DNA of 64,000 nucleotides, taken from NCBI GenBank assembly GCA_017480225.1, contig JAFVBB010000018.1, positions 186,001 through 250,000 of the forward strand, written 5' to 3'. This DNA comes from Bacteroidales bacterium (GTDB lineage: Bacteria > Bacteroidota > Bacteroidia > Bacteroidales > P3). This document shows positions 32,083-60,155 of the stretch, piece after piece. The position numbers and the translations under genes were made by a program. How positions within the stretch are numbered: the first letter of the stretch is position 1; each line of letters begins with the position of its first letter. The notes under the pieces are model-generated. The model worked only from the letters and a program-made list of their open reading frames with translations, made no database searches and had not been told where the DNA came from.

Positions 32083-32183
32083 CAACTCCTACTCAACTCC
32101 TACTCAACAACTACTCATCGTCTTGTCAACCTCTACATTTGTAGGCGATGATTAGTTGTTGACAAGTTGATGACAATATGTTG
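32083..32183 (-). repeat. Family B 11-bp-unit element, copy B1
   Basis: 101 bp. Read on the minus strand: four units ending in T or A (for example CATCAACTTGT, CAACAACTAAT, CATCGCCTACA), a 2-nt centre AA, then five units ending in TG (TGTAGAGGTTG, ACAAGACGATG, AGTAGTTGTTG and AGTAGGAGTTG twice). Adjacent sequence TTGATGCTTCTTTG (32181-32194) is identical to the end of family A copy A3. It occupies the middle of the 484-bp gap between the LplA-LipA terminator and the next promoter. Confidence 0.88.
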
Positions 32184-32251
32184 ATGCTTCTTTGCCGCCG
32201 CCACATCATTGGCCAGCTGCTGGCGGGATAGGGGAGGGGTACAAAAATAAT

Positions 32252-32283
32252 TTTGTGTGTTTCATTGATTGTTCGTAACTTTG
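32252..32283 (+). promoter_or_regulatory. Promoter of the 32354-36619 operon
   Basis: TTTG (32252-32255), 20-bp spacer, TAACTTTG (32276-32283), about 70 bp before the ATG at 32354. Confidence 0.85.
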
Positions 32284-32353
32284 CAAAGTTGCAAAATGTG
32301 CATATTGCGCACTATAGTGCAGAAAATCAACAGAGAACAAAAATAACACTGCA

Positions 32354-33742
32354 ATGAAGAAGGGACTACTTTTTGCGGCGCTGGCCGCCGCGGCACTGCT
32401 TTGGAGCTCGTGCAGGGACGAGGACAAGGCTTTGCTCAACCACGGCTACAGAATTCAGGGCGAGGTGTCGCCCACATTCGAACTGCCGTTGTCCAGCGGC
32501 GAGATGAACCTCAACGACCTGCTGACCAAGTTCGGCGGCGCGCTCGACGGCTACATCACCAACGACTCGGTGATAACGTTCAAGTACTCAATGTCGGTGA
32601 AGGACACCGTCGACGTGGGCGGCATGATTGCCTCGCCGCGTCCGCGCCACGGCGCGAAGAAGCCCATCGCCACCAAAGACGGCGACGCGCTGGTTTCGAA
32701 AGACACTGTGATTGAGTACACTATACCGATTGACATATTCAACCAGGTGGACCTTCTGCAGGACAACGACATCAGCATCGGCCACCTGTGGTTGAGTCTC
32801 CACGCGCTGGTGCAGGGCTTCTGCCCCGACAACGTGCGCGATGACCTGCGCGAGTTTGTGTGGGCTTCCATCGACAGCCTCGCCATACAGTACGACGGCA
32901 AGGACGGCCACAAGGATTTTGGCGTGATTGAGCAGGCCTCGCTGCGCGTCAACGACCTCACGGCCGACAACCGCATGGAGTTCGACAGCGTGAACCTGGC
33001 CGAGATCGTCAACGCGCTGCCCACAAGCATCACCGCCAAGTTCCGCCTGCATGTCAATGTGGACGAGGGGCTTTCACAGAAATACATGGTCGATTTCTCG
33101 CACATCGAATACTTCCAGGAGCTGCTCGACAGCCTGCGCATGACCAGCCTCGTCTACGGTGCCGATGTCAACGTCGACCTGCCATTCGAGGTGAGCGTGG
33201 GTATGCTGGCCTACAGCTACGACATGTCGCTTGGCTCGGGCTCGTCGGCAGGCGGCAACAGCTCGGTTCTCGACGAGTTGAACGATGTTCTCAACCGCAT
33301 AGTGGGCGAGGGCATGAGCCTCGACTCGTCGGCCCTGACCGTGGTGTTGCGTGTGGACAACGGCATTCCGCTCAACATCAACCTCAACGGCACGGTGTGC
33401 GACGACAATGGCCTGCCGCTGTTTGTGCTGCTTGCCAACGACAACATTGCCTCGGCGCAAACGGCGCCGGTGGCGGGCACTACGGGAGTGAGCGAGGCTG
33501 TGGCTCCGACAAAGAGTGTCATCGAGGTTGAGCTCAGCCTGGAGCGCGCGCGGCAGTTCGTCAACGCATCCAGCCTGCGCCTCGACATGCTGATGACCAC
33601 CGACGGCACCGACAGCAAGCGCATCCGCCGCTCGGACAACCTCAAGCTGCAGATGCTTGTCAAGGTGAACCCGAACATAAAGATAGACATGGGCGTGCCC
33701 GGGCTAAGCGAGGGCATACCTGTAATTGGCAACATGTTTTAA
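32354..33742 (+). CDS. Envelope lipoprotein of unknown function
   Basis: 462 residues. The signal MKKGLLFAALAAAALLWSSC carries the lipobox Cys at 20. The mature protein is predicted to be beta-rich, with alternating segments such as EVSPTFELPLSSGEMNLNDLL, FKYSMSVKDTVDVGG, LRLHVNVDEG-like strands and a C-terminus ending in VKVNPNIKIDMGVPG. I know no functional family. It is followed 24 bp later by a DUF5723 outer membrane barrel; the constant pairing suggests that the two act together at the outer membrane. Confidence 0.75.
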   Translation: MKKGLLFAALAAAALLWSSCRDEDKALLNHGYRIQGEVSPTFELPLSSGEMNLNDLLTKFGGALDGYITNDSVITFKYSMSVKDTVDVGGMIASPRPRHGAKKPIATKDGDALVSKDTVIEYTIPIDIFNQVDLLQDNDISIGHLWLSLHALVQGFCPDNVRDDLREFVWASIDSLAIQYDGKDGHKDFGVIEQASLRVNDLTADNRMEFDSVNLAEIVNALPTSITAKFRLHVNVDEGLSQKYMVDFSHIEYFQELLDSLRMTSLVYGADVNVDLPFEVSVGMLAYSYDMSLGSGSSAGGNSSVLDELNDVLNRIVGEGMSLDSSALTVVLRVDNGIPLNINLNGTVCDDNGLPLFVLLANDNIASAQTAPVAGTTGVSEAVAPTKSVIEVELSLERARQFVNASSLRLDMLMTTDGTDSKRIRRSDNLKLQMLVKVNPNIKIDMGVPGLSEGIPVIGNMF

Positions 33743-33766
33743 CCGGCAGCAAGGAGGAATTACACT

Positions 33767-35314
33767 ATGAAGAAGACATTATTGGCTTTAACAGCGCTGA
33801 TCACCCTCGCCGCCAGCGGCGCGAAGGCGCAGTCGTTCAGCTACAACGAGACGAACAACCTGCTCTACTTTGCCAACCGCGTGCCGCAGGTGAACCAGCT
33901 CAACCCGGCTCTGTTCCCCGCAAACAACACGTTCTACCTGCAACTGCCCGGCATGAACGGACTGCAGTTCGGCTTCCCGCTGTCGATTGGCGATATAGCG
34001 AAGTACGACGCCGCCCAAAACATGAACATCATCGACCTCAACAGCATACTCAACACGCTGAACAACAGCAGCCAGTTCCGCGTGGGGCTCGACGTGAACC
34101 TGCTGGGCTTCGGTTTCAAGGTGCACAACCTGTTTTTCGATTTCAACACGCAGCTGCGCGGCAACGTCAACTTCGGACTGCCTGTGAGCGTGGTAAACAC
34201 GCTGCTGCAGGGCAATGTTGACGGCGACCAGCCCATACCCTCGGCCACGCTGCTTGACGGTTCGCTCTTCAACTCGCAGTTCTACCTGGAGACAAGCTTG
34301 GGCGCGGGCTTCCGCCTGCCCGTCATTCCGTTGACCATCGGTGTGCACGCCAAGCTGCTCTCTGGCCTCTTCAACGTGCAGATGGACAACACCAATATCA
34401 CCTTCGAGACCGACGAGGACTTCAACACCGTCCGCGCGAAAGTGTACTACGAGCTGGTGGCGGCGTCGGCACTCAACATCGACACCACGGGTGGCTTCGG
34501 CAACATTCCGCAGAATCTTGTAAGTTCGTTGAAGGATAACCCAATGGATGCCGTGCGCAACCTGTTCGACCTCGCTGGCGGCAACACTGGCGTGGCCTTC
34601 GACATCGGAGCGCGCTACGACATGGGGCCGCTCACGGTGTCGGCCTCCATCAACGACCTCTCGGCCGGTATTCACTGGCAGAAGAACCTGGTGGCCGTGG
34701 TGCCCAACGGTGGCGAGGCGGCACTCGAATTCAGCGGCATCGACCTGGGCAACCTACTCGACAACGGCAACTTCGACGTCGACACCCTCAGCACCTACCT
34801 TAACAGCCAGGTGAGCAAACTGGAGCCTTCCCTCAAGGTTGACGAGGGCGAGTACTGGTACAACATACCCACCAAGATCAACCTTGCCGCCACCGTCAAC
34901 CTCGGCCTTGTCAAGGCCGGTCTGCTCTTCCACGGCCAGTTTGACCGCGGCCTGCTCAGCAAGAACACCTACAGCACCGTGGCCGACGCCGCCGGCGACC
35001 TGAGCCACAACTACGGCGAACTGAAGAATACATTCCGTTTCAACACCACCCTCTCGGCCGGGATAAACCTTTTCAACTGGTTTGAGCTCATCGTGGGCTC
35101 GTCGATGGTGTTCGACGGCAACCCCATATCGCTGAGCAACTTCCTCAACCCCGGTGTGGGCTTTGTGTTCACTCCCGCCACCTTGCTGCAGGCCTACGTG
35201 ATGATGGACTACGTCAGCAGCATCTATCTGGCCGACATGAAGGCGTTCAACGTCAAGGTCGGGTTCAACATGCTCATCGGCAACGGTGGCAAACGAAAAG
35301 TACTGGGCTTCTAA
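33767..35314 (+). CDS. DUF5723 family outer membrane beta-barrel protein
   Basis: 515 residues. A signal peptide ends at GAKAQ. Then QVNQLNPALFPANNTFYLQLPGMNGLQFGF is the start typical of DUF5723 proteins, which look like PorV/FadL-type barrels: amphipathic strands spaced through the sequence and a C-terminus rich in alternating aromatic and hydrophobic residues (FNVKVGFNMLIG). No substrate is known. It follows the lipoprotein gene and abuts der with no intergenic base, so the three are probably one transcript. Confidence 0.82.
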   Translation: MKKTLLALTALITLAASGAKAQSFSYNETNNLLYFANRVPQVNQLNPALFPANNTFYLQLPGMNGLQFGFPLSIGDIAKYDAAQNMNIIDLNSILNTLNNSSQFRVGLDVNLLGFGFKVHNLFFDFNTQLRGNVNFGLPVSVVNTLLQGNVDGDQPIPSATLLDGSLFNSQFYLETSLGAGFRLPVIPLTIGVHAKLLSGLFNVQMDNTNITFETDEDFNTVRAKVYYELVAASALNIDTTGGFGNIPQNLVSSLKDNPMDAVRNLFDLAGGNTGVAFDIGARYDMGPLTVSASINDLSAGIHWQKNLVAVVPNGGEAALEFSGIDLGNLLDNGNFDVDTLSTYLNSQVSKLEPSLKVDEGEYWYNIPTKINLAATVNLGLVKAGLLFHGQFDRGLLSKNTYSTVADAAGDLSHNYGELKNTFRFNTTLSAGINLFNWFELIVGSSMVFDGNPISLSNFLNPGVGFVFTPATLLQAYVMMDYVSSIYLADMKAFNVKVGFNMLIGNGGKRKVLGF

Positions 35315-36619
35315 ATGAACATTGTTGCAATAGTCGGCAGGCCCAATGTGGGCAAAAGCACGCTCTTCAACCGCTTGACCGAATCGCGCCAGGCGATTGT
35401 GGACGAGACCAGCGGCGTGACGCGCGACCGACAGTATGGCCATTCCGACTGGAACGGCAAGCATTTCTCAATCATCGACACTGGCGGCTACGTGATGGGC
35501 GGCGACGACGAGTTTGAGGAAGAGATACGCAAGCAGGTGGGGCTGGCCATTGACGAGGCTGACGCCATCCTGTTTGTGGTCGACGCCCGCGAAGGGCTGA
35601 CCGCAATGGACGAGGATGTGGCCGACATGCTGCGACGCCAGCCAAAACCTGTGTTCCTGGCAGCCAACAAAGTCGACAACTCCGCGCAGATGAGCAACCT
35701 GGCCGAGTTCTACTCGCTTGGGCTTGGCGACCCTTTCCCCATAGCCGGCATCACTGGCAGCGGCACGGGCGACCTGCTCGACGCGCTGGTGAGCGACTTT
35801 GACGAGGGTGAGGAAGACCAGCATGGCGATCTGCCGCGCATTGCCGTGGTGGGGCGTCCCAACGTCGGCAAAAGCTCGTTCATCAACATGATAACCGGCG
35901 AGCACAGGTCGGTGGTGACGCCGATAGCCGGCACCACACGCGACTCTGTCTACACGCATTACAACCTCTTTGGTTTCGACTTCAATTTTGTCGACACCGC
36001 TGGATTGCGCCGCAAGAACAAAGTGAACGAGGACCTGGAGTTCTACTCTGTGATGCGCTCGGTGCGAGCCATCGAATCGAGCGACATGTGCATATTGATG
36101 CTTGATGCCAGCCAAGGCATAGAGCAGCAGGATCTCAACATCTTCTCCCTGATAGTGCGCAACCACAAGGGGGTGGTGATTGTTGTAAACAAGTGGGATT
36201 TGGTGCAGAAAGAGACCAATACACACCGCGACTTCGAGCGCACTATCCGTGAGCGCATAGCACCCTTCGACGATGTGCCGATAGTGTTCACGTCGGTAGT
36301 CAACAAGCAGCGCATCTACAAGGTGCTTGAAGTTGCCAGGCAGGTGTGCGAGGCTCGCAGCCGCCGCATCTCAACCGCCGAGTTGAACGAGCGCCTGCTG
36401 CCGATAGTGAAGGAGCAGAACCCGCCGCCTTCGGTAAAAGGTAAATGGGTAAAGATAAAATACATAACCCAACTGCCCACCCACTATCCGCAATTTGTTT
36501 TCTTCTGCAACCTGCCGCAATATGTGCGCGACCCATACAGAAGGTTTGTGGAGAACAGGATACGCGAGATGTGGGACTTCCACGGTGTGCCAATGACCAT
36601 CTTCTTCCGTGCGAAATAG
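35315..36619 (+). CDS. der: Ribosome-assembly GTPase Der (EngA)
   Basis: 434 residues with two tandem GTPase domains and a C-terminal KH-like domain, the defining arrangement. First P-loop GRPNVGKST (8-16) with DTGG and NKVD; second P-loop GRPNVGKSS with DTAGLRRK and NKWD. It acts in late 50S subunit maturation. The ATG directly follows the stop of the barrel gene. Confidence 0.97.
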
Positions 36620-36674
36620 ACGTTTGGCACGCTTTTTGATAAATGGTAGGAAGAAACAAAACAACAACAGAGAT

Positions 36675-36983
36675 ATGAAAGTTACAGAACAGAATTTTGA
36701 CGAGCTGCTGGCCAGCGGCAAACCTGTCATGATCGATTTTGGCGCCACGTGGTGCGGTCCCTGCAAAGCTTTGGCTCCAAGAGTCGAGGAGGTGGAGGGA
36801 GAATATGCCGACCGCGCTGTGGTAGGCACGGCCGATGTGGATGAGTGCGCTGGCCTTGCCGCGCGTTTCCGCATCCGCAATGTCCCCACTGTGCTTTTCT
36901 TCAAAGGCGGAGAACAGAAGGATAAATGCGTTGGCATGGTGTCAAAGGAGACACTCACCGAAAAGCTTAACGCCCTGCTCTGA
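36675..36983 (+). CDS. trxA: Thioredoxin
   Basis: 102 residues from ATG 36675, which gives the standard thioredoxin length; a longer frame upstream was rejected. The active site is WCGPC (26-30), and the cis-proline is in IRNVPTVLFF. It is a cytoplasmic dithiol reductant. It lies 55 bp after der and 2 bp before the DUF58 gene. Confidence 0.95.
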   Translation: MKVTEQNFDELLASGKPVMIDFGATWCGPCKALAPRVEEVEGEYADRAVVGTADVDECAGLAARFRIRNVPTVLFFKGGEQKDKCVGMVSKETLTEKLNALL

Positions 36984-36985
36984 AG

Positions 36986-37912
36986 ATGCTTCGCGAGCAA
37001 GCATCGCGCTACAGTACCCTCGACTTCCTGGCTCGTCAGGTGGTCGAGGGTTTTATCGTTGGTAGACACCGCAGTCCGTTTCACGGCTATTCGGCAGAAT
37101 TCTCTGACTATCGCCAATATAACGACGGCGAAAGCACACGCAACATAGACTGGCATCTCTACGCGCGCACCGACAGGCTTTATGTCAAACAGTTTGAGGA
37201 AGAGACCAATCTCCGCTGCCGCATTGTGGTTGACAACAGCGGTTCCATGCTTTTCCCAACTGACGGACATGCCGACTTTGTGTCACCCAACAAGCTGACC
37301 TTTGCCGCACTGGCCGCAACGGTGCTCGTTGAAGTGCTCTATCGCCAGCGCGATGCATTCGGACTCACGCTTGTTGCCGACGGCATAGGGTTGAGCACTC
37401 CATGCCGATCCAGTGCAGCACACAGACGGCACATTGTCGGTGAACTTGAAAAACTGGTGCAACCACTGTCTCTACCTGCCTCTGAACCTCACTCTACGGG
37501 CATTGCGCAGTCGCTGCATATCATGGCCGAGGCCATGCACAGGCGTTCGCTGGTTGTCATCTTCACCGATGCTTTCGTTGGTGATGGCGAGCAGGAGCTC
37601 CTCTTCGACGCCTTGCGCCACCTGCGCCACAACAAGCATGAGGTAATTCTATTCCACACATACCACCGCCGACATGAGATGAACCTTGACTATGGCACAG
37701 CACCTGTGAGGTTTATCGACCTGGAAAATGGGCGTGTGCTGAAACTGCAGCCACAGGATGTTGCGGAGAAATACAGCCTGGAGATGAACAAGCAGCGCAA
37801 CCTTCTTCAACAACGCGCCATGCAGTACAACATAGACTACGTGGCGGTCGACGTTGAGCAAGGCTGTGAACAGGTGCTAACACCATTCCTTCTGCGTCGA
37901 AGCAAGATGTAA
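36986..37912 (+). CDS. DUF58 domain protein
   Basis: 308 residues. The DUF58 core is GYSAEFSDYRQYNDGESTRNIDWHLYARTDRLYVKQFEEE (34-73), followed by a von Willebrand-like fold whose metal site shows DNSGS at 83-87 (D83, S85, S87). Such proteins usually work with a MoxR AAA+ ATPase and Bat proteins, often linked to envelope stress. Here neither is adjacent; the neighbours are trxA and an esterase. No signal peptide or membrane segment is seen. Confidence 0.88.
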   Translation: MLREQASRYSTLDFLARQVVEGFIVGRHRSPFHGYSAEFSDYRQYNDGESTRNIDWHLYARTDRLYVKQFEEETNLRCRIVVDNSGSMLFPTDGHADFVSPNKLTFAALAATVLVEVLYRQRDAFGLTLVADGIGLSTPCRSSAAHRRHIVGELEKLVQPLSLPASEPHSTGIAQSLHIMAEAMHRRSLVVIFTDAFVGDGEQELLFDALRHLRHNKHEVILFHTYHRRHEMNLDYGTAPVRFIDLENGRVLKLQPQDVAEKYSLEMNKQRNLLQQRAMQYNIDYVAVDVEQGCEQVLTPFLLRRSKM

Positions 37913-37915
37913 TCC

Positions 37916-38503
37916 ATGTCTTACGCGCTTTATATACACGGCATGGGCAGTGGTGCAAAGAGCGGCACACGCTCGTCTCTTGGCCACTATCTGCAGGGCT
38001 ACGAGTGGCTCTGCCCGGAGCTGCCTACCGACCCCCAGCAGGCACTTCTGATACTGCGCGACTACGTTTCTGTTTTCCAACCCGACCTGGTGGTTGGCAC
38101 ATCGCTCGGTGGACTGTATACTGTCTATCTTGAAGCGCCCACAAAGGTTGCGGTTAATCCCACTTGGAACATCGACACCACGTTGCGCCGTATGGGATAT
38201 GGCAAGCATGTGTACCATTGTGAGCGAGAAGACGGAGCAACACATTTCACGGTTGACGAACCATTGGTGCAGGCCTACCGTGCGTTCCGCGACGGTACCG
38301 CCCCGGTGCCCAGCGGCAACCAGCTGGCTCTTTTCTCTACCGACGACGAGATTGTGGGCCGCCTGGCATCGAAGCAGAATGCAGCACAGATGCAAGCGCT
38401 GGGCTACAGAGTGGAGTGGAGCTCGCGTTTCGGCCACCGACTGAACCAAGCCGCTGCCAAACAGCTTGCATCCATGCTGCTCTCCATGCAGACGCACTAT
38501 TGA
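37916..38503 (+). CDS. YqiA/UPF0227-type esterase (alpha/beta hydrolase)
   Basis: 195 residues. The oxyanion-hole segment IHGMGSG (7-13) and nucleophile elbow GTSLGG with Ser63 are clear. A late His in RFGHRLNQ is the probable catalytic base, and Asp in FSTDDEIV the acid. YqiA-like proteins hydrolyse short esters; the physiological substrate is unknown. The 3' end overlaps the convergent 38497-38952 gene by 7 bp. Confidence 0.82.
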   Translation: MSYALYIHGMGSGAKSGTRSSLGHYLQGYEWLCPELPTDPQQALLILRDYVSVFQPDLVVGTSLGGLYTVYLEAPTKVAVNPTWNIDTTLRRMGYGKHVYHCEREDGATHFTVDEPLVQAYRAFRDGTAPVPSGNQLALFSTDDEIVGRLASKQNAAQMQALGYRVEWSSRFGHRLNQAAAKQLASMLLSMQTHY

Positions 38504-38952
38504 CCTTCCTGCCAGGTTGTGTCTATTCTGCCGTTGCTTTGTATTGCGTTGGAGCGTATCATGCGCTCTATCTCTTCCGGGTCGAAGTATAGTTTGCGGC
38601 CAACCTTCATGGGGCGCAACAGTCCCTTCTTTACCCAACGGCCAAGCGATTGGCGCGATGTGTGCAGCTGCTCGCACACGTCAAACGTGTCCATCCACTT
38701 TGTCAGACCGCGCTTGGGATGCTCTATCGCCATCAGCGAGCCCTCGCGTGCTGCCGGGTACTCCCTCATCAATGCAGCAAACTGCTCGTCGGTCATTGGC
38801 CTGCGGTTCTTCTGTTTGGCACTGTGGATACTGATTGACAGCTGGTTCACAAGGCCGTCGTCCGAGCGATAGAACAGGTAAATAAGGTTTGGCTTACCAT
38901 CCCAATCCAAGTGCAGTTTCTGCACGATTGCTTTGATTTCTTCGATTGTCAT
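38497..38952 (-). CDS. MerR-like helix-turn-helix protein
   Basis: 151 residues. The C-terminal half contains a short winged-helix of the MerR/excisionase (HTH_17) type: DTFDVCEQLHTSRQSLGRWVKKGLLRPMKVGRKLYFDPEEIERMI. The N-terminal part (EEIKAIVQKLHLDWDGKPNLIYLFYRSDDGL) is not recognised. This DNA-binding module occurs in transcription regulators and in excisionases of mobile elements; no integrase is present here. The convergent overlap with the esterase gene and the lack of a strong promoter are notable. Confidence 0.75.
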   Translation of the reverse strand: MTIEEIKAIVQKLHLDWDGKPNLIYLFYRSDDGLVNQLSISIHSAKQKNRRPMTDEQFAALMREYPAAREGSLMAIEHPKRGLTKWMDTFDVCEQLHTSRQSLGRWVKKGLLRPMKVGRKLYFDPEEIERMIRSNAIQSNGRIDTTWQEGQ

Positions 38953-39148
38953 GTTCGCTGTTTTATTGTTATTACGGCTGCAAAGGTGCGAAAAAACAGA
39001 CGCATGGCAATCACATCAGCAGTGCGGCAAACTGAAGGTGAGGAGTTCGCATGGCAACTGCGAACTTGCCGCAAACCAGCGTGAACAGACAGTTAACCAA
39101 TCGTAAAGAAAATGCAAAAAAGTTGTGAATGAATGGATTATTTTTCCT

Positions 39149-39156
39149 AACTTTGC
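39149..39156 (+). promoter_or_regulatory. -7 box of the 39223 gene
   Basis: TAACTTTG, about 67 bp before the GTG start. The -33 region is TTGT-like. It lies in a low-GC stretch between two divergent unknown genes. Confidence 0.65.
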
Positions 39157-43937: not shown

Positions 43938-44049
43938 CAACGACTGCTCATCACAATATCAACAACCAATCATCGCCTTGTCATCGCCTACTTGACTGGT
44001 TGTTGACAAGGCGAAGAGTAGTCGTAGAGTAGGCGATGAGTAGGAGTTG
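43938..44049 (+). repeat. Family B 11-bp-unit element, copy B2
   Basis: Units CAACAACCAAT, CATCGCCTTGT, CATCGCCTACT (with two weaker ones before), 2-nt centre TG (43993-43994), then ACTGGTTGTTG, ACAAGGCGAAG, AGTAGTCGTAG, AGTAGGCGATG, AGTAGGAGTTG. The core from 43949 is 101 bp, with one further possible unit at 43938. The complements of the three inner left units appear on the right in the same order, not mirrored. It lies in the 433-bp divergent gap between serC and tpiA, where I see no other gene. Confidence 0.88.
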
Positions 44050-44190
44050 GTCTTGTCTTGTGGCTGGCAATGTGGCAGTTGGCGAAGGCGTTTTTTCACC
44101 AATTTGGCATGGGTTGATTTTTCGGCGCGCGGCGCAATAAAAAAGGAGACCCAGCGTTATCGGCTAAAGTAAACGCAAACACATCTATCT

Positions 44191-44956: not shown

Positions 44957-46171
44957 GTGTCATTCGAGCGGTTCATAGCACGCCGCTTCATGCCGTGGCG
45001 GGGATCGGGCAGCGGTTTCAGCGGCCCGCTGTCGGTCATCGCCGTCAGCGGCATAGCCTTGGGCGTGGTGGTCATGGTGATGGCCGTGAGCGTGCTCGAC
45101 GGCTTCCGCCGCGACATAGCGGGCAAGGTGGTGGGCTTCGGCAGCCACCTTGCCGTCACAGCCTACGAGCCCTCGCCCGCCGACACCGAGAACCCCCTCG
45201 CCGCCGACGAGGCCACGCTGGCGGCCATACGCGCCACTGAGGGCGTGACCCACGTGCAGGCTTTCGCCACCAAGGGGGGCATGGTGAAGACACCCGACCA
45301 GATCTACGGCATCATGCTGCGCGGCTACGGGAGCGACTGGGACAGCTCGTTCTTCGCCGCGTCGCTCGTGGAGGGCACCTTGCCCAGGGGTGGCAACGAC
45401 GTGCTCGTGTCAACCACAGTGGCGCGCAAGCTCGGCCTCGAGGTGGGCGGCAAGATGCGCACCTACTTTTGGCAGGGCAACACCTACAGGGCGCGCGCCT
45501 TCAATGTCTCCGGACTCTACAACACCGACCTCAGCGACATGGACGGGCTCTACGCGGTGGGGGCGCTCTCCACGGTGCGCCGCCTCAACGACTGGGACAG
45601 CCTGCAGGCGGGCGGCTACGAGGTGGCTGTGCGGTCGCTGCGCGACATCGACGCGGTGCAGTCGCGCCTCCAGTCGGTGCTGCCCTACGACATGATGCTC
45701 ACCAGCGTGGTGCAGGCCAACCCGGCGCTCTTCTCGTGGCTCGACCTGCTCGGCGCCAACATCACCCTGCTGCTTGTCATAATGGCGCTGGTTAGCTCGG
45801 TGTGCATTGTGAGCGCGCTGCTGATAATGATATTCGAGAAAAGTTCCACCATAGGCCTGCTCAAGGCGCTCGGCGCAACCAACGGCTCGGTGCGCCGTGT
45901 GTTCCTCATCAAGGCGTGCCGCCTGGTGGCGCTGGGCGTGGTGGCCGGCGATGCGGTGAGCCTTGCCTTGAGCCTGGTGCAGAACAGGTTCCATCTGCTC
46001 CGCCTCGACCCCGAGAGCTACTCGATGAGTGTAGTGCCGGTGAGCATAGAGCCGCTGACCTACCTGCTTGTGAGCCTCGGCACGGTGGCGGTGTGCCTTG
46101 CGGCGCTGCTGCTGCCCACGGCAGGCATAAGCCGCATCAGTCCGTCGCAGACAATGAGGGTTGAGAAATGA
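44957..46171 (+). CDS. LolC/LolE-like ABC transporter permease (FtsX family)
   Basis: 404 residues from a GTG start 4 bp after tpiA. An N-terminal membrane segment (LSVIAVSGIALGVVVMVMAVSVLDGF) precedes a large periplasmic domain, then three C-terminal helices (NITLLLVIMALVSSVCIVSALLIMIFEKSSTIGLLKALGATNGSVRRVFL, and so on). The EKSSTIGLLKALG motif is typical of LolC/E and other FtsX permeases that extract lipoproteins or drive periplasmic mechanics. No ATPase gene is beside it, so its partner is encoded elsewhere. The end overlaps the kinase gene by ATGA. Confidence 0.88.
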   Translation: MSFERFIARRFMPWRGSGSGFSGPLSVIAVSGIALGVVVMVMAVSVLDGFRRDIAGKVVGFGSHLAVTAYEPSPADTENPLAADEATLAAIRATEGVTHVQAFATKGGMVKTPDQIYGIMLRGYGSDWDSSFFAASLVEGTLPRGGNDVLVSTTVARKLGLEVGGKMRTYFWQGNTYRARAFNVSGLYNTDLSDMDGLYAVGALSTVRRLNDWDSLQAGGYEVAVRSLRDIDAVQSRLQSVLPYDMMLTSVVQANPALFSWLDLLGANITLLLVIMALVSSVCIVSALLIMIFEKSSTIGLLKALGATNGSVRRVFLIKACRLVALGVVAGDAVSLALSLVQNRFHLLRLDPESYSMSVVPVSIEPLTYLLVSLGTVAVCLAALLLPTAGISRISPSQTMRVEK

Positions 46172-50287: not shown

Positions 50288-50388
50288 CAAAGCCTTGTCA
50301 TAACGTTGCCATAGGCTTATTATTGCCTACTTTTGAAAATTTTTATAAGCCGTTGACAAGTCTATGTGTAGGCGATGAGTAGGAGTTG
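50288..50388 (+). repeat. Family B 11-bp-unit element, copy B3
   Basis: 101 bp, the most diverged copy. Left: CAAAGCCTTGT, CATAACGTTGC, CATAGGCTTAT, TATTGCCTACT; centre TT (50332-50333); right: TGAAAATTTTT, ATAAGCCGTTG, ACAAGTCTATG, TGTAGGCGATG, AGTAGGAGTTG. The 4-2-5 unit count and the phase are the same as in the other copies. Its last two units match theirs exactly. It lies in the divergent gap between DUF6266 and argS. Confidence 0.8.
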
Positions 50389-53044: not shown

Positions 53045-53068
53045 GCAACAACAAACACATATACAATC

Positions 53069-54583
53069 ATGGCAAATCAAGACGACTTCTTCAAAAAGGT
53101 GGTGGCACACGCCAAGGAATACGGTTTCATCTTCCCCAGCTCAGAAATATACGACGGACTGGCCGCCGTGTACGACTACGGCCAGCTGGGCGTGGAACTG
53201 AAGAACAACATAAAGCAGTACTGGTGGCGCTCGATGGTGCAGATGCACGAGAACATCGTGGGTCTCGACAGCGCCATCTTCATGCATCCTCGCATATGGA
53301 AAGCGTCGGGCCACGTAGACGCCTTCAACGACCCCCTGATTGACAACAAGGACAGCAAGAAGCGCTATCGCGCCGACGTGCTGATAGATGACCACATAGC
53401 CAAGATAGAGGAGAAGGTTGAGAAGGAGGTGGAGAAAGCGCGCAAACGCTTCGGCGAGGCCTTCGACGAGGCGCAGTTCCGCTCCACCAACCAGCGTGTA
53501 CTCGACCACCAGGCGCAGATTGACTCCATCAGGGAGCGCTACGCCAGCCTGATGAACGACAGCGACCTGGCCGGACTGAAGCAGCTGATACTCGACCTTG
53601 GCATTGTTTGCCCGATAAGCGGCACACGCAACTGGACAGACGTGCGCCAGTTCAACCTCATGTTCGCCACAAAGATGGGGTCGGTCATCGACGACAGCGA
53701 CACGCTCTACCTGCGTCCCGAGACGGCGCAGGGCATATTCGTCAACTTCCTCAATGTGCAGAAGAGCGGACGCATGAAGATACCCTTCGGCATTGCGCAG
53801 ATAGGCAAGGCATTCCGCAACGAGATAGTGGCTCGCCAGTTCATCTTCCGTATGCGCGAGTTCGAGCAGATGGAGATGCAGTTCTTCGTGCGCCCTGGCA
53901 CCGAGCTCGATTGGTTCCGCCACTGGAAAGAGGAGCGCCTGCAGTGGCACCTCGCCCTCGGCATACCCGCCGACTGCTACCGCTACCACGACCATGAGAA
54001 GCTGGCTCACTACGCCAACGCCGCCACCGACATTGAGTTCCGTTTCCCCTTCGGCTTCAAGGAGCTGGAAGGCATACACAGCCGCACCGACTTCGACCTG
54101 TCGCGCCACAGTGAGTTCAGCGGCAAGAAGCTGCAATATTTCGACAGCGAGCTGGGCGAAAGCTACACGCCGTATGTGATTGAGACCTCGATTGGTGTTG
54201 ACCGCACCTTCCTGGCCATCTTCAGCCACTCGCTGCGTGAGGAGACGCTCGAGGACGGCTCTGTGCGCACTGTGCTCGGCCTGCCTGCCATGCTCGCGCC
54301 CTACAAGGCCGCGGTGCTGCCGCTGGTGAAGAAAGACGGCCTGCCCGAGAAGGCGCGTGAGGTGCAGCACATGCTGATGCGCGACATGATGGTGCAGTAC
54401 GACGAGAAGGATGCAATCGGCCGCCGCTACCGCCGTCAGGACGCAATCGGCACACCGTTCTGTGTCACCGTCGACAGCGACACACTGGCCGACGGAGCCG
54501 TGACGGTTCGTCACCGCGACTCGATGCAGCAGGAGCGGGTGGCAGTGGACAGTCTGCGCCAGTACCTGATGGAGCGCCTTTAA
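53069..54583 (+). CDS. glyS: Glycyl-tRNA synthetase (dimeric type)
   Basis: 504 residues, the alpha2 class II form found in Bacteroidota, archaea and eukaryotes. Motifs: YDYGQLGVELKNNIKQYWW near the N-terminus; RPETAQGIFVNF and KIPFGIAQIGKAFRNEI (motif 2); GVDRTFLAIFSH (motif 3). The insertion between motifs 1 and 2 (about 100-200) is helical. It charges tRNA-Gly. The ATG is 24 bp after the thioesterase gene, so the run argS-thioesterase-glyS may be one transcript. Confidence 0.96.
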   Translation: MANQDDFFKKVVAHAKEYGFIFPSSEIYDGLAAVYDYGQLGVELKNNIKQYWWRSMVQMHENIVGLDSAIFMHPRIWKASGHVDAFNDPLIDNKDSKKRYRADVLIDDHIAKIEEKVEKEVEKARKRFGEAFDEAQFRSTNQRVLDHQAQIDSIRERYASLMNDSDLAGLKQLILDLGIVCPISGTRNWTDVRQFNLMFATKMGSVIDDSDTLYLRPETAQGIFVNFLNVQKSGRMKIPFGIAQIGKAFRNEIVARQFIFRMREFEQMEMQFFVRPGTELDWFRHWKEERLQWHLALGIPADCYRYHDHEKLAHYANAATDIEFRFPFGFKELEGIHSRTDFDLSRHSEFSGKKLQYFDSELGESYTPYVIETSIGVDRTFLAIFSHSLREETLEDGSVRTVLGLPAMLAPYKAAVLPLVKKDGLPEKAREVQHMLMRDMMVQYDEKDAIGRRYRRQDAIGTPFCVTVDSDTLADGAVTVRHRDSMQQERVAVDSLRQYLMERL

Positions 54584-54603
54584 CCACAAACGACACACAT
54601 TTT

Positions 54604-57501
54604 ATGAAAAAGACAGTATTCTTCATGGCCGCCATGGCGCTGTGCCTATTCGCCACGGCACAGGTGCGCGCCACGCGCTACGGTGACAGCAAGACAGTGC
54701 GTCCGCAGACCTTCCGCCTGGCCAACGGCCTGAAGGTGATTGTGGCCGAGGATCATTCCGAGCCAAAGGTCTACGGCGCGGTGATTGTGCACGCAGGCTC
54801 GAAGAACGAGGACACCGCCGCAACCGGCGTGGCCCACTACTTTGAGCATATTATGTTCAAAGGCACAGACCGCATAGGCACCGTGGACTGGGAGCGTGAG
54901 CGCCCTTACCTCGACTCCATCAGCCTCTTCTACGACGACCTGCAGACCGCCGACCACGACACCACCCGCGCGAAGATACAGGCCGAGATCAACCGGCTCA
55001 ACATCGAGGCCAGCAAGTTCGCCATCGCCAACGAGACCGACGCCATACTGCAGCAGATGGGATGCACCGGCCTCAACGCTGGCACCACCTACGACTACAC
55101 CGTGTACTACAACACCCTGCCAAGCAACCAGCTGGAGAACTGGATGGAGGTGTATGCCGAGCGCTTCCGCAATCCGGTCTACCGCCTCTTCCAGGGCGAG
55201 CTTGAGGCGGTGTATGAGGAGCGCAACATCTACAACAACGACATGTTCTACTCCTTCAGCCGCAACCTCTTCACCGAGAGTTTCGGCCAGCACCCCTACA
55301 GCCGCGACATCATCGGCCTCGACGAGCACCTGAAAAGACCGCAACCCAGCGCGATGCGCAAGTTCTACGACAAGTACTATGTGGCCTCAAACATGACCCT
55401 GTTGCTGGTGGGCGACCTCAATGTGGCACAGGCTAAGCAGATGGCGGAACGCTACTTCGGCGTGTGGCCGGCAGGCAAGCGCGTCAGCGAGCCGCGCTAC
55501 GAGCTGCCGCGTTTTGAAAGCCGTGTGGTCAAGAATGTGAAGCAGACCCCCATCAAGGTCGGACTCATGGTCTTCCCCGGTGTTAAGGAAGGCAATCGCG
55601 ACCAGATTGCGCTCGAAGCCATGTGCGAGCTGCTCAGCTCGGAGGGCGGAATGCTGAGCCGCATGGTGAGCGAGGGTAAATTAATGGCAGCCACGATGCT
55701 ACCGCTGACCTTGCAGGATGCGGGCTCCAACGTGTTGTTATATGCTCCGAAACTGCTGGGACAGAAGCACGAGCAAGCAGAAGAGCTTGTTTGGGAGTGC
55801 ATAGACAGCATGAAGACCGGTGGCTTTGACGACCGTCAGCTCGAGGCCTTCAAGACACGCCGCATTGTCGAGAACCAGCGCCAGCTGGAGAGCATCGACG
55901 GGCTGGCCAACCTGCTGGAAAAACTGGAATGCACAGGCAGCGGCTACGAACAGTGGCTCGACGACCAGAGCAAACTGGCCGCGCTCACCAAGGCGGACAT
56001 CAGCCGCGTGGCCCGCGAGTATTTCGACCGCGACCACTGCACCATAGTGCGCTCGTCGATGGGCTTGCCCAAAAAGGAGGCTGCCATAAAGCCGGAGTGG
56101 GAGCACCTCGACGCACAGAACCAGGGACGGCAGTCGGACTTCGCCAAGCGCATCGCCTCACACAAGGTGGATCCGGTGACACCGCAGGAGATAGACTTCC
56201 AGCGCGACGTTGCCCAGGTGCAGGTGTCGCCCTTCTGTCGCCTCTACGCCGCCCCCAACCCCCGCAACGGCATCTTCACCCTCACCATTGCTTACCACTA
56301 CGGCACCGTCGACAACCTTGACATAGAGCCTGCCGTCAACTACTTCAACCGCATCGGTGCCGGTGTGCACAACAGCCAGCAGTACGCCACCGAACTCGAC
56401 TGCCTCGGTGCCAGATTCAAGGCGGAGGCAGGCTACGACTACACAACACTCACCATCAGCGGGCCGGAGCAGAACATGGACGACATCATGCGCCTTGTGA
56501 TGCTGAAGATGCACCACCCCATGCACGACCGCCAGCAGCTGAAGAACATGATTGAGGAGGCCGAGCTCGCCAAGAAAGCCGCGGCCGACGACCCCGACAC
56601 CTGGTTCGCCGCCCTGCATGACTATGTGGACTACGGCAAGCAGTCGCCATACATCGACCACACCACGCTGAAACAGCTCAAGAAACTCGACGGCGAGCAG
56701 CTGTTCGGCCTTATGCAGGACATTTTCGGCCGTGACGGCTACGTCACCTTCGTGGGCAACACCCGCCCCGAGGATGTGGCCGCCATGCTGCGCACCGAGA
56801 ACCTCGTGCACGAGACTGTGCACACCGTGCCGCAGCGCATCCGAATACCCGCCAGCCACAGCGAGAACGAGGTGTTCTACGTCAGCAACAGCCAGTTCCT
56901 CAAAAGCGACGTGGCGCTTACGGTGCAGAGCCGCGACTTCGACTACCGGGCCGACCGCGCCGCAGCCGCCCTGTTCAACGAATACATGAGCGGCGGCATG
57001 AACGGCGTGCTCTTCCAGGAGATACGCGAGTTCCGCGCGCTGGGCTACCACACCTTCGGCCTCTTCGTCTACGACCACCGCAACCGCTTTCGCTCCTCAT
57101 TCCTGGGCTATCTCGGCACACAGGCCGACAAGACCAACGACGGCATCGACGCCATGTATGGGCTGATGACGGCATTCCCTGTGCGCAAGGACAAGTTCGT
57201 GCCGAGCCGCGAGCAGCTTGTGGCCTCGCGCAATGCCAACTACATTGGCTTCCGCAACCTGCCCGCCATGGTGAGGCTGTGGCGCGAGGAATACAACCTC
57301 GATGCCGACCCGCGCCAGGCGCTCACTGCCGAGATTGCCAACCTGCGCTTCGACGAGCTTGAGGACTTCCACAGCAAGTACATCAGCGGCCGCCCTGTGG
57401 TGGTGCTGGTGAGCGGCAGCGCAAAGAAGTTCAAGGTCAAGGAACTTTCGGCTTACGGCAAGATGAAAAAGCTCAAATACAAAGACATCATGAAGTTCTG
57501 A
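54604..57501 (+). CDS. Secreted M16 family zinc metalloprotease
   Basis: 965 residues. A signal peptide (MKKTVFFMAAMALCLFATAQVRA) leads two M16 peptidase halves. The first has the inverted zinc motif HYFEH (His78, Glu81, His82) and the later ELEAVYEERNIYNND segment supplies the third ligand. The second half (about 525-965) has no HxxEH and is inactive, as usual. The product is an exported pitrilysin/insulinase-like protease acting in the periplasm or on the outer membrane, cutting peptides up to about 50-70 residues. A terminator follows. Confidence 0.93.
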   Translation: MKKTVFFMAAMALCLFATAQVRATRYGDSKTVRPQTFRLANGLKVIVAEDHSEPKVYGAVIVHAGSKNEDTAATGVAHYFEHIMFKGTDRIGTVDWERERPYLDSISLFYDDLQTADHDTTRAKIQAEINRLNIEASKFAIANETDAILQQMGCTGLNAGTTYDYTVYYNTLPSNQLENWMEVYAERFRNPVYRLFQGELEAVYEERNIYNNDMFYSFSRNLFTESFGQHPYSRDIIGLDEHLKRPQPSAMRKFYDKYYVASNMTLLLVGDLNVAQAKQMAERYFGVWPAGKRVSEPRYELPRFESRVVKNVKQTPIKVGLMVFPGVKEGNRDQIALEAMCELLSSEGGMLSRMVSEGKLMAATMLPLTLQDAGSNVLLYAPKLLGQKHEQAEELVWECIDSMKTGGFDDRQLEAFKTRRIVENQRQLESIDGLANLLEKLECTGSGYEQWLDDQSKLAALTKADISRVAREYFDRDHCTIVRSSMGLPKKEAAIKPEWEHLDAQNQGRQSDFAKRIASHKVDPVTPQEIDFQRDVAQVQVSPFCRLYAAPNPRNGIFTLTIAYHYGTVDNLDIEPAVNYFNRIGAGVHNSQQYATELDCLGARFKAEAGYDYTTLTISGPEQNMDDIMRLVMLKMHHPMHDRQQLKNMIEEAELAKKAAADDPDTWFAALHDYVDYGKQSPYIDHTTLKQLKKLDGEQLFGLMQDIFGRDGYVTFVGNTRPEDVAAMLRTENLVHETVHTVPQRIRIPASHSENEVFYVSNSQFLKSDVALTVQSRDFDYRADRAAAALFNEYMSGGMNGVLFQEIREFRALGYHTFGLFVYDHRNRFRSSFLGYLGTQADKTNDGIDAMYGLMTAFPVRKDKFVPSREQLVASRNANYIGFRNLPAMVRLWREEYNLDADPRQALTAEIANLRFDELEDFHSKYISGRPVVVLVSGSAKKFKVKELSAYGKMKKLKYKDIMKF

Positions 57502-57528
57502 CCGCGCTGCGGCGCGGCCGTCATCCAT

Positions 57529-57562
57529 GCCCGGCAGCAGTGGCTGCCGGGCTTTCTTTTTC
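57529..57562 (+). terminator. Terminator of the M16 protease gene
   Basis: Perfect 10-bp stem GCCCGGCAGC (57529-57538) with GCTGCCGGGC (57543-57552), 4-nt loop, then a T-rich tail. Confidence 0.9.
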
Positions 57563-57590
57563 ACCACCCGCCGCAACCATTCTCCGGCAG

Positions 57591-57635
57591 TAAAAAGAGA
57601 GGGTGCCGCAAAGGCACCCTCGACTGTTTTTAATG
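57591..57635 (-). terminator. Terminator of the 57697 lipoprotein gene
   Basis: Stem GAGGGTGCC (57599-57607) with GGCACCCTC (57613-57621), 5-nt loop. On the minus strand it is followed by TCTTTTT (57591-57598 region); on the plus strand by ACTGTTTTT, so it may act both ways. Confidence 0.75.
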
Positions 57636-57696
57636 TTAGGCTGTAAGCCGACGGCGATGCGCATTTGCCCGCCGCGCTCCCGGCTTTTGTTGACGC

Positions 57697-58209
57697 TTAC
57701 TCCTCGACTACGATGTATTCCTTGTTTCTGTCGCCGATGAGCTTGAGCTGCCTCTCTGTGCGGAAGTTCTCGTAGGTGGCCCCATAGCCGCTCACGCGCA
57801 CAGTGTAGATCTTGTAGATTAGGCCGAGCGGGCTTTTATGTACGGTGATCTCGTATTTGGGGTTAACCAGCACGTCGCACTCGGGGCAGGATTGCAAGGC
57901 ATTGTAGGCGGCGATGGCACGTGCGGTTCTCTTGCCACGCTCAAGGAACCAGGTCTCATCCTGCGAATAGTTCACACCCTCCACCATGTGCAAGTTCTCC
58001 AGGTCAGACACCCTGATGCCGAAAACGTAGGTTGCCGAGCCCTCACCAACCAGTTTTTGGTCCTCATTCACCTTGATGTCGGCCTTGATGGGGTCAAGCT
58101 GCACGTTGCGGGCAATCACCGGCGACGACTGGATGGCCTTTACCTGTGTGGAGCACGACGCAAAGGCCGCGGCAGCGATTGCGACAAAAAGAATTGTCTT
58201 GGTCTTCAT
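57697..58209 (-). CDS. Small envelope lipoprotein
   Basis: 170 residues from ATG 58209. The signal peptide ends in the lipobox FASC (Cys about 18 of the chosen start). The mature domain holds VQLDPIKADIKVNEDQKLVGEGSATYVFGIRVSDLENL and then NALQSCPECDVLVNPKYEITVHKSPLGLIYKIYTVRVSGYGATYENF. This arrangement is common in Bacteroidota lipoproteins of unknown function that may share a fold with small periplasmic sensors. It is followed by a terminator and sits 34 bp after the YD-repeat gene. Confidence 0.78.
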   Translation of the reverse strand: MKTKTILFVAIAAAAFASCSTQVKAIQSSPVIARNVQLDPIKADIKVNEDQKLVGEGSATYVFGIRVSDLENLHMVEGVNYSQDETWFLERGKRTARAIAAYNALQSCPECDVLVNPKYEITVHKSPLGLIYKIYTVRVSGYGATYENFRTERQLKLIGDRNKEYIVVEE

Positions 58210-58243
58210 TGGGATATGGTTATGTGTGTGTGACTTACTGATT

Positions 58244-59071
58244 TCAGTCGGCAGGGAAGGCAATCTCGCGCTCAATCACCTGGTAGGGCACATTGTTGCG
58301 GTAGATGGTCTGGCGCACCCAGTTGTCGTCCTCGTCGTACTCGTACACATAGCTGTGCTTCCAGTTGAGGTGCTCGTCGTAGTTGAACGAGCTGATCTCG
58401 ATGAGGTTGTCGTGGTCGTCGTAGTAGTAGGTGGTGAGAGCCGAGAGGAACTCGTCGGCATCGTAGAAGCGCCACTCGATGCGGTTGCCGCGCTGGTCGT
58501 ACTTGTAGAAGTAGTGCTGCATCAGCTCGCCGTCGCGGTCAAAAAACTCCACCTCGGTGCAGTTGCCGCGTGCGTCGTACTTGTAGGAGCGCCTCTCGGT
58601 CATCTCGCCGTCGGGCGAGAAGCTCTGCTCCTCGGTCTTCATGCCGTTCACAAACTTGCTGGCCTCGCGTTTTGTCATGCTGTTGCCTAGGTACACGGTG
58701 CGCTCAATGCGGTTGCCGTCGCGGTCGTTGAGGTAGGCCGTGCGCCCGGTGAGCATCTTCTCGCGGTTGTACTCGTTCCAGCCCAGCGAGTAGCCGTTGA
58801 CGTCGAAGTAGTAGCTGTACCACGTGTATTCGTTGGCCTTGGTGCGGAACTTGTCCTGCAGGTTGCCGCGCTTGTCGAAGGTGATGCTGTCTATGCAGAT
58901 GAGCTGCCTGCCGCCGTCGCGCCCGCCACGCAGGTTATACGTGTACTCGATGACGTAGATGGCATCGCCGTGGATGCCCATTTCTGTGCGCGAATTCTTG
59001 CGCGGACGCGGCCCGGCAACGGCCATGCCGACCATTAACAGTGCCAGTACCAATAAGATAGACTTCTTCAT
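58244..59071 (-). CDS. Secreted YD-repeat-like (RHS-like) protein
   Basis: 275 residues from ATG 59071, with a signal peptide (MKKSILLVLALLMVGMAVAG). The C-terminal half is a chain of about five degenerate repeats of roughly 24 residues with the pattern Y-x-YD-x-x-GN/D: RRSYKYDARGNCTEV, YFYKYDQRGNRIEW, YYYDDHDNLIEIS, SFNYDEHLNWKHS, YVYEYDEDDNWVRQ. Such repeats build a beta-scroll like that of RHS/teneurin proteins. No toxin tip is attached. A long upstream extension was rejected because it overlaps the divergent trmH promoter. Confidence 0.78.
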   Translation of the reverse strand: MKKSILLVLALLMVGMAVAGPRPRKNSRTEMGIHGDAIYVIEYTYNLRGGRDGGRQLICIDSITFDKRGNLQDKFRTKANEYTWYSYYFDVNGYSLGWNEYNREKMLTGRTAYLNDRDGNRIERTVYLGNSMTKREASKFVNGMKTEEQSFSPDGEMTERRSYKYDARGNCTEVEFFDRDGELMQHYFYKYDQRGNRIEWRFYDADEFLSALTTYYYDDHDNLIEISSFNYDEHLNWKHSYVYEYDEDDNWVRQTIYRNNVPYQVIEREIAFPAD

Positions 59072-59090
59072 ATCCAAATGCTTTATTCTG

Positions 59091-59098
59091 CAAAGATA
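59091..59098 (-). promoter_or_regulatory. -7 box of the YD-repeat/lipoprotein operon
   Basis: Reads TATCTTTG on the minus strand, 20 bp before ATG 59071; this supports that start. Confidence 0.65.
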
Positions 59099-59162
59099 CA
59101 ACATTTTTTCAAACATGCGCCAACTTTTTTTTCGGCCATCGTGCCTCCGCCGGGCGCTGCGT

Positions 59163-59193
59163 TTTGCCAATAGAGGGAAAATGAGTAACTTTG
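59163..59193 (+). promoter_or_regulatory. Promoter of trmH
   Basis: TTTG (59163-59166), 19-bp spacer, TAACTTTG (59186-59193); the ATG at 59248 follows at a normal distance. Confidence 0.8.
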
Positions 59194-59247
59194 CAGCCTC
59201 ACAGTGATGGCCGCCGCTCCAGCCAGCCATCAGTAAAACAACAGTTT

Positions 59248-59958
59248 ATGCCAGAACGCAACCCCAACCGCGCCAGCATTTTCGCCGGCCTCGACCTTCA
59301 GGGCAAGGCCGCCCTCTACGAGCGCGCCTCGCAGTTTTTCAGCCAGGGCAAGCGCGAGCTCTTCGACCGCCTGGCCCCGCTGCGCACCCGCCACATCAGC
59401 GTGGTGCTGGAGGATGTCTACCAGAGCCACAACGCCTCGGCGGTGCTGCGCTCGTGCGACTGCTTCGGCGTGCAGGACGTGCATGTGGTCGAGGCTCGCA
59501 ACCCCTTCAACCCGGCGGGCGACGTGGCCGTGGGCTCGTCGAAGTGGGTCGACTACTACCGCCACGCCTCGATAGGACAGGCCTACGACACCCTGCGCCG
59601 CCGCGGCTACCGCATAGTGGCCACGCTGCCCCACGAGCGCGACTGCATGATCACCGAGCTCGACATCAGCCAGCCCACGGCGCTGGTGTTCGGCACCGAG
59701 CTCACCGGCCTCACCGACGAGGCTGTGGCCGGTGCCGACGCCTACGTGAAGATACCCATGTACGGCTTCACCGAGAGCTTCAACATCTCGGTCTGCGCCG
59801 CCCTCTCGCTCTTCAGCCTCACCGAGCGTATGCGCTCCGACCCATCCATAGGCTGGCGCCTCGACGACGACAGCCTGCTCGACCTCAAACTGCACTGGGC
59901 CATGCAGGCCATCAAGGACGGCGAGCGCGTGATGCAGCGCCTGATTGACGAGGCATAG
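59248..59958 (+). CDS. trmH: tRNA (guanosine(18)-2'-O)-methyltransferase
   Basis: 236 residues from ATG 59248. SPOUT motifs: HNASAVLRSCDCFGVQDVHVVE (motif 1), LVFGTELTGLTDEAV (motif 2) and IPMYGFTESFNISVCAALSLF (motif 3). The long C-terminal helical extension (LTERMRSDPSIGWRLDDD...) is the TrmH-specific part. It methylates G18 in the D-loop of tRNA. It is followed by a strong terminator. Confidence 0.93.
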   Translation: MPERNPNRASIFAGLDLQGKAALYERASQFFSQGKRELFDRLAPLRTRHISVVLEDVYQSHNASAVLRSCDCFGVQDVHVVEARNPFNPAGDVAVGSSKWVDYYRHASIGQAYDTLRRRGYRIVATLPHERDCMITELDISQPTALVFGTELTGLTDEAVAGADAYVKIPMYGFTESFNISVCAALSLFSLTERMRSDPSIGWRLDDDSLLDLKLHWAMQAIKDGERVMQRLIDEA

Positions 59959-59983
59959 CCTGCCGCCCACCGCGGCCGCACCA

Positions 59984-60026
59984 GCCGGGAAAACGGTCAC
60001 CAAGCCGCTTTCCCGGCTTTTTTTTT
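59984..60026 (+). terminator. Terminator of trmH
   Basis: Stem AGCCGGGAAA (59984-59993) with TTTCCCGGCT (60009-60018), followed by T to 60026. Confidence 0.92.
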
Positions 60027-60054
60027 CCATGCTGGCGGCCGCCCAAGGCTGCGT

Positions 60055-60155
60055 CTACTGCATGTTATAAACTTGTCAACAACTTGTCATCGTCTACTCG
60101 AGAAGTAGATGAATAGGCTTTGGGTAGGCTATGAGTAGGAGTTGAGTAGGAGTTG
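60055..60155 (+). repeat. Family B 11-bp-unit element, copy B4
   Basis: 101 bp. Left units CTACTGCATGT, TATAAACTTGT, CAACAACTTGT, CATCGTCTACT; centre CG (60099-60100); right units AGAAGTAGATG, AATAGGCTTTG, GGTAGGCTATG and AGTAGGAGTTG twice; then GGTCTATAC, the reverse of the opening found beside B1. It lies between the trmH terminator and the ilvE promoter. Confidence 0.88.

Follow-up and report, generated by a model that had tools for sequence, protein, structure and literature searches.

Evenly spaced arrays of 11-bp units as candidate markers of ~10-kb chromosome domains in a gut Bacteroidales genome

A 64,000-nucleotide stretch of a Bacteroidales draft genome (contig JAFVBB010000018.1, positions 186,001 to 250,000; the whole stretch is called the window) contains four intergenic elements, termed family B, in which units of 11 bp are arranged in two inverted arms about a short centre. 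The question raised by this locus is why the period is held while the bases within it vary. From the letters of the window, a preliminary description had proposed selection on the period itself, exerted either by a protein binding one face of the helix or by an RNA duplex. Further copies were sought in the source genome of the window (G000; 2.05 Mb, 97.6% complete), whose closest named relatives are uncultured Bacteroidales, chiefly metagenome-assembled genomes from ruminants. Data on spacing and on a second family, A, were obtained from 710 kb of its contiguous sequence. The reading favored here, at a probability of roughly 0.4, is that the elements are helically phased arrays bound by a putative protein and that they mark chromosome domains of ~10 kb.

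Architecture, phase, and arm pairing

All four copies were found where the preliminary description had placed them, with the 11-bp phase unbroken and the same last unit, AGTAGGAGTTG, terminating each (B1 on the minus strand). An identical layout of four units, a 2-nt centre, and five units in 101 bp had also been claimed for all four; this was confirmed for B1, B4, and B3, the last of which holds its 11-bp units and their count despite many base changes, but B2 follows a 5-2-5 plan of 112 bp. Across the 2.05-Mb genome, exact AGTAGGAGTTG was observed 90 times compared to 8 times for the reversed control pattern, far above chance. These occurrences form 57 clusters, 55 of them true family B elements and the other two lone units without an array, at locus L106 and at window position 28671. 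The count of 55 is a lower bound, as copies without an exact AGTAGGAGTTG are missed by the search.

The left units of B approximate CA[AT]CNNCT..T and are followed by the 2-nt centre, while the right units end in GNNG[AT]TG, with the final two or three close to AGTAGGAGTTG. Beyond the right arm lies a conserved one-sided tail consisting of GTCTATCCTTTATGCTGATTTACAGTNNTTT and then a weaker TTTTACCCCC, and ahead of the left arm is a unit resembling CAAGGCCGTGT. The tail was absent from the preliminary description, as were the even spacing with family A and the differently spelled relatives reported below. Near-invariant columns return every 11 bp in the alignment, alternating with free columns. 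With the right end as an anchor and 33 offsets compared, the best offset of the left arm was 0 in 52 of the 55 copies, -11 in two, and +11 in one. Counted with a loose consensus, five right units were present in 48/55 copies and four or five left units in 47/55. Genome-wide, the phase claimed from the window was thus upheld, exact in 52 copies and one unit off in three, and the supposedly fixed 4-2-5 count turned out to be the usual one only. The period is therefore kept while the bases vary, at a mean pairwise identity between copies of 0.68 (maximum, 0.81; flanks, 0.28). Because identity is this low, the B copies appear to be old.

Repeat lags from 5 to 30 were also scanned over the 710 kb. 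At 25/33 matches, 68 clusters were found at lag 11 and 57 at lag 22, with 0 to 4 at the other lags; at a looser 22/33 matches, lag 11 gave 73 clusters, lag 12 gave 25, and lag 9 gave 12. Family A is the second 11-bp palindrome of this genome, with 48 copies, and no third family was detected in the scan of the 710 kb. The centre of A measures 5 nt in 47/48 copies, with typically four inner units per side (4-5nt-4); farther out, the units are progressively less conserved. The outer unit, TCAAGGCCGTC or TCAACACCGTC, resembles the far-left unit of B. Copies of A are rather alike (mean identity, 0.82; maximum, 0.95). At least two subfamilies could be distinguished by eye, in one of which a TGATGTCC unit breaks the symmetry of the arms, apparently in both orientations (contigs C14, C1, and C11).

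Inverted arms could also mean that the elements act as hairpins, either as folded RNA or as extruded cruciform DNA, serving as terminators, mRNA ends, or supercoil relief or gyrase sites like the bacterial interspersed mosaic elements (BIMEs) of Escherichia coli. Mirrored positions in B were complementary, with G-U allowed, in 63.2% of cases, and shuffling among the 55 copies gave 62.5% (z 1.4). In A, complementarity was below the shuffled level (z -3.2 to -6.0; 47 copies), because variant units occupy unmirrored places. Covariation was therefore lacking in both families, and the inverted arms in the source genome are explained by the unit consensus rather than by maintained pairing. That selection in this genome acts on an RNA hairpin is accordingly not supported, and a stem does not need an 11-bp register. 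The position of B, in divergent gaps in 33/55 cases and in a convergent gap in 1/55, also counts against hairpin elements. Folding was more equivocal: compared with shuffles, B3 (z -1.5) and B4 (z -1.8) were close to the background, whereas B1 (z -3.5) and B2 (z -6.0) folded better and the four A copies in the window formed very strong single-strand hairpins (z -8 to -15). Moreover, the arms of related arrays in the congener G009 do covary, at 0.79 versus 0.68 shuffled (z 9; 15/36 candidates with a 2-nt axis fitted per copy), and one family in the congener G012 does so weakly (z 2.3 and 4.0; 10/40 candidates). A pooled value for the other G012 arrays (z 23.6) was uninformative, since families were mixed. 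Of the two options in the preliminary description, the RNA duplex is thus weakened by the lack of covariation in G000 and by the folding of B3 and B4, and keeps some support from B1, B2, and G009. Overall, hairpin function remains a rival on account of G009, but an unlikely one.

Spacing in the source genome

In the 710 kb, 73 elements (48 A and 25 B) delimit 70 intervals ranging from 4.55 to 20.3 kb, with a mean of 9.9 kb and a coefficient of variation (CV) of 0.36. The list omits seven weak lag clusters (five marked "?" and two single B units) and retains window copy B3, whose layout was known, though it gives no lag-11 signal; 67 of the elements lie in usable gaps and three in no called gap. 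As a null model, gaps matching the occupied ones in number and orientation type, each with at least 100 bp of nonelement DNA, were drawn at random 5,000 times. The draws had a CV of 0.84 ± 0.09 and contained 19.3 ± 2.9 intervals of <4.5 kb, with 10 or more in every draw. The matched subset of observed intervals (n = 64) had a CV of 0.34 and no interval of <4.5 kb.

The two families were found to avoid each other as well. When B was randomized with A fixed, 8.0 ± 1.8 B elements were expected within 4.5 kb of an A element and 0/23 were observed; within 6 kb, two of the 23 were observed versus 9.6 ± 1.8 expected. The stretches surrounding the 51 B loci that lie outside the window contained no A element; the sole A of that set is at the chance locus L106. 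Among usable gaps without another element within 4.5 kb, 67/94 were occupied (33/38 divergent, 8/12 convergent, and 26/44 tandem), whereas 0/83 gaps near another element were. The rule is softer at 6 kb, where 18 of the 67 occupied gaps have another element that close. Families A and B are thus jointly and strikingly evenly spaced in this genome, for which ~211 sites are obtained by extrapolation.

With respect to gene orientation, the 55 B elements were located in 33 divergent gaps, 18 tandem gaps, and 1 convergent gap, with 1 overlap and 2 edge cases; A (n = 44) was distributed over 16 divergent, 20 tandem, and 8 convergent gaps. Some error attaches to these gap types, because genes were called by a simple codon-score method. 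The median distance from B to a start codon was 192.5 bp (84 gene sides). This distance and the preference for divergent gaps would suit operators of a single transcription factor with a large regulon, and tandem 11-bp operators of that kind are known from CarH-type regulators (PMC9304148). Such a regulon is nevertheless very improbable. The eight neighbors scanned beside the window copies are unrelated to one another, most of them being housekeeping genes; the number of sites is large, A also occupies convergent gaps (8/44), no B12-binding_2 domain was found in G000, and even spacing is not expected of a regulon and is hard to reconcile with it.

Taken together, phase is maintained and pairing is not, which argues for a protein acting on duplex DNA, and a distance kept between differently spelled sites points to a function at the level of the chromosome rather than of the neighboring genes. 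Domain-marking sites are favored because of these two features and the unrelated neighbors. Under this proposal, A and B would be sequence variants of a single class of site on the chromosome, whose 11-bp units, each close to one helical turn, form two arms inverted about a dyad. A putative DNA-binding protein would probably occupy the units head to tail along one helix face and probably assemble outward from the dyad. One site stands per ~10 kb, in gaps at the borders of transcription units, with a second site avoided within ~4.5 kb; the role proposed for the sites is to anchor or insulate chromosome domains of ~10 kb, which may be supercoil or loop domains.

The window copies and their tails are listed in Table 1. 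In a tally by contig, the B elements were spread unevenly, with 31/55 on C1, C11, and C17 (677 kb) and 10 on C7, C14, C15, and C16 (742 kb); the tally was made by hand and the contigs were grouped after inspection. The uneven share could be a marker of chromosome arms.

Table 1. Elements of families A and B in the window, with conserved tails and neighboring genes
Feature	Position	Strand	Description
A1	1313..1425		Family A palindrome, 11-bp units, 5-nt centre
A2	6490..6590		Family A palindrome
A3	15401..15513		Family A palindrome
A4	22651..22766		Family A palindrome
B1 conserved tail	32052..32082	minus	GTATAGACTTCTTACTGATTTACAG...
B1	32083..32183	minus	4-2-5 array, 11-bp units, 101 bp; tail end faces lower coordinates
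B2	43938..44049	plus	5-2-5 array, 112 bp; between divergent aminotransferase class V and tpiA genes
B2 tail	44050..44080	plus	Diverged
B3	50288..50388	plus	4-2-5 array, 101 bp, many altered bases; flanked by divergent DUF6266 and arginyl-tRNA synthetase genes
B4	60055..60155	plus	4-2-5 array, 101 bp; flanked by tandem SpoU methylase and aminotransferase class IV genes
B4 conserved tail	60156..60186	plus	GTCTATACTTAATGCTGGTTTTCAG...

Related genomes and the question of mobility

A close match to the B pattern (≤3 mismatches in 24 bases) was found in 8/61 genomes, all of the same genus and one with a single weak match; the control pattern matched in 2/61. Arrays defined by lag 11 reach further than this sequence. 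They were observed at 21/41 tpiA loci of nearer relatives (L132 to L172), many with other unit sequences, and at 0/39 more distant loci (about 250 kb per set). In 17 of 40 judgeable loci, the array lies within 450 bp upstream of tpiA, a position matched by B2. Some of the arrays upstream of tpiA in other species are B-like in the opposite orientation, and some are A-like by eye. A comparison of orthologous gaps, which the preliminary description had called for, was possible for the tpiA region: the gap carries an array in 5/8 congeners with conserved neighbors, and a neighboring gap that is empty in G000 does so in 0/3. These cases are too few to call positions conserved, and none of the sampled congeners is a near one (tpiA DNA, ≤81%).

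In G012 (400 kb) and G009 (358 kb), spacing was measured between gap midpoints, with arrays sharing a gap counted once. The lists contained 29 clusters for G009 and 40 for G012 at a lag-11 score of ≥22; they include a few without arms, and degenerate copies are missed. No interval of <4 kb was found among 32 in G012 (8.5 ± 2.2 expected) or among 26 in G009 (6.3 ± 1.8 expected), and evenness was clear in G009 (CV 0.47 versus 0.90 ± 0.16). Several array families could be recognized by eye in G012. Repeats of period 7 (also 14, 21, and 28) were seen on G012 C1 and C4 and G009 C1 and C2; G012 had 36 lag-7 and 31 lag-11 clusters in 400 kb, and lag 7 gave 0 clusters in the 710 kb of G000. Longer tandem units around AGTGTCGCACCATCAATCCCAA make up an array of 450 bp, unlike the 11-bp elements, at 45257-45709 of a joined stretch on G093 C7.

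From these data, it can be tentatively proposed, with slightly less assurance than for the source genome, that a genus of gut Bacteroidales has ~10-kb domains bounded by inverted 11-bp-phased arrays. Their predicted binder would evolve fast, along with the units it recognizes, so that sequence is rewritten between species and the phase, dyad, and ~4-kb exclusion are kept.

The main rival to the domain reading is mobility: the elements may be nonautonomous mobile repeats of several families, served by a common recombinase or transposase that cannot act close to copies already in place (target immunity). Insertion would then continue until the intergenic gaps were nearly saturated. The minimum distance and the near-saturation of free gaps are explained equally well in this way, and the exclusion of ~4 kb across families and the dispersal of the copies are in its favor. 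The presence upstream of tpiA, in different species, of different families and of B-like arrays in opposite orientation, and the similarity of the A copies, also speak for mobility. Against mobility, no flank duplication common to many copies was found among 1,600 and 3,600 offset pairs, although no formal test was applied; the best pair gave 5/47 A and 8/55 B copies at 3 nt, and for A and B, respectively, the counts were 3 and 4 for 4 nt, 2 each for 5 nt, and at most 1 for 6 to 9 nt. Conservation is lost gradually outward at the ends of both A and B, with no sharp boundary. The Y1 transposase domain of RAYT proteins (PF01797) gave 0 matches in G000 and matched in 5/14 control genomes; other transposase families were not searched. 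Recent B copies are lacking (maximum identity, 0.81), and the phase persists under divergence, whereas dead copies adrift would lose it. On balance, mobility is considered somewhat unlikely.

Several observations weigh against domain-marking sites, beyond the account of minimum distance and near-saturation that target immunity also provides, the covarying arms in G009, and the strong hairpins of A. A binding protein for the arrays was not found in the searches made: the CarH-type domain B12-binding_2 (PF02607) had 0 matches in G000 versus 9/14 controls. Of two MerR_1 matches in G000, the one in the window (38497-38952, minus strand) is a small excisionase-like helix-turn-helix (HTH) protein that weakly resembles, below the cutoff, an HTH protein of the MADS defence type. 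The distance thresholds were picked after the minima had been seen, the CV test being independent of them. Evenness in G012 is marginal (CV 0.67 versus 0.86 ± 0.13), and measured by element centres, intervals of 3.93 and 3.98 kb occur there, as do intervals of 3.67 kb in G010 and 3.58 kb in G004. G103 has an interval of 1.85 kb, the second member of which resembles a simple repeat. Two G012 gaps hold two different adjacent arrays (C1 near 80.1 kb and C4 near 46.1 kb), and occupancy of the tpiA gap differs among congeners. Finally, no array was detected by the lag test in 5/25 congener sets, namely, G035, G015, G084, and G119 (18 to 20 kb) and G014 (48 kb); therefore, either the system varies across the genus or these sets have units degenerate enough to escape the test.

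If the arrays do mark domains, the borders of ~10-kb domains could be read directly from the DNA; a natural series of species would be at hand in which the recognition sequence has changed and the architecture has stayed constant, and domain size, insulation, and binder-site coevolution would become testable. If they are mobile, they represent a class of repeats whose exclusion acts across families of unrelated sequence. On either reading, a strong quantitative regularity is present in gut bacteria that was not found described in the literature searched.

Comparison with known systems

The preliminary description knew of no element with this architecture, and no match was obtained in Rfam, plasmids, phages, or the literature searched. 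Over the window, Rfam at its gathering cutoff returned a cobalamin riboswitch only (26707-26921, upstream of a long plus-strand gene). At E ≤ 1 on L001, the stretch that holds B3, a single weak match lay away from B3.

Repetitive extragenic palindromic (REP) sequences are described as dispersed and often number more than 100 per genome (PMC2817692). They are reported to measure 20 to 40 bp and to lie mainly downstream of genes; RAYT transposases have been proposed for the GTAG type, and supercoiling roles have been proposed for REP/BIME (PMC3733652). The GTAG- or CGTC-tagged REP/BIME elements resemble the arrays as dispersed palindromes of which some families are species specific. The arrays differ in being ~100 bp long, in their 11-bp units, and in their avoidance over ~4.5 kb. 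REP/BIME with RAYT was rejected, with no Y1 transposase found in G000, and a predominant placement downstream of genes is not seen, B being mostly divergent and A mixed.

BrickBuilt, a miniature inverted-repeat transposable element (MITE) of Porphyromonas gingivalis, is likewise an intergenic tandem-unit element of the Bacteroidales with a leader and a tail (PMC4596501). According to the same source, it has 23-nt units in very variable number, 19 copies, and IS5-like terminal repeats. The present arrays have 11-bp units, inverted arms about a centre, and even spacing, and no target duplications were found. A 23-nt unit is contradicted by the 0 clusters at lag 23 versus the 68 and 57 at lags 11 and 22, and target site duplications at fixed ends, as expected of a MITE, were not seen as a feature shared by many copies.

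The operators of CarH, a MerR-type regulator, consist of three or four tandem 11-bp repeats bound on one helix face (PMC9304148). Direct repeats of 11 bp are shared with the arrays; the operators differ by lying at carotenoid-gene promoters, by their TnnACA motif, and by being bound by a B12 photoreceptor, whereas ~200 sites with inverted arms are found here. With no B12-binding_2 domain in G000, CarH itself was rejected as the binder. The parC site of plasmid R1 has two sets of five repeats. For ParR of R1, the minimum is two 11-bp repeats, and once on direct repeats ParR nucleates an assembly of protein and DNA (PMC9426499). The repeat length is common to both systems, but parC is a plasmid centromere upstream of parM, and the 73 sites in 710 kb of contigs are dispersed on the chromosome with inverted arms. 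CarH and ParR are precedents for proteins on 11-bp direct repeats.

REP/BIME, BrickBuilt, MITEs, CarH operators, and parC each fail at least one of the defining features tested, and no described counterpart was found in the literature searched. The claim of novelty depends on four traits occurring together, namely, a period of one turn per unit, arms that are inverted, mutual avoidance of different families, and a sequence rewritten from species to species; jointly, they look like a so far undescribed way to split a bacterial chromosome into domains.

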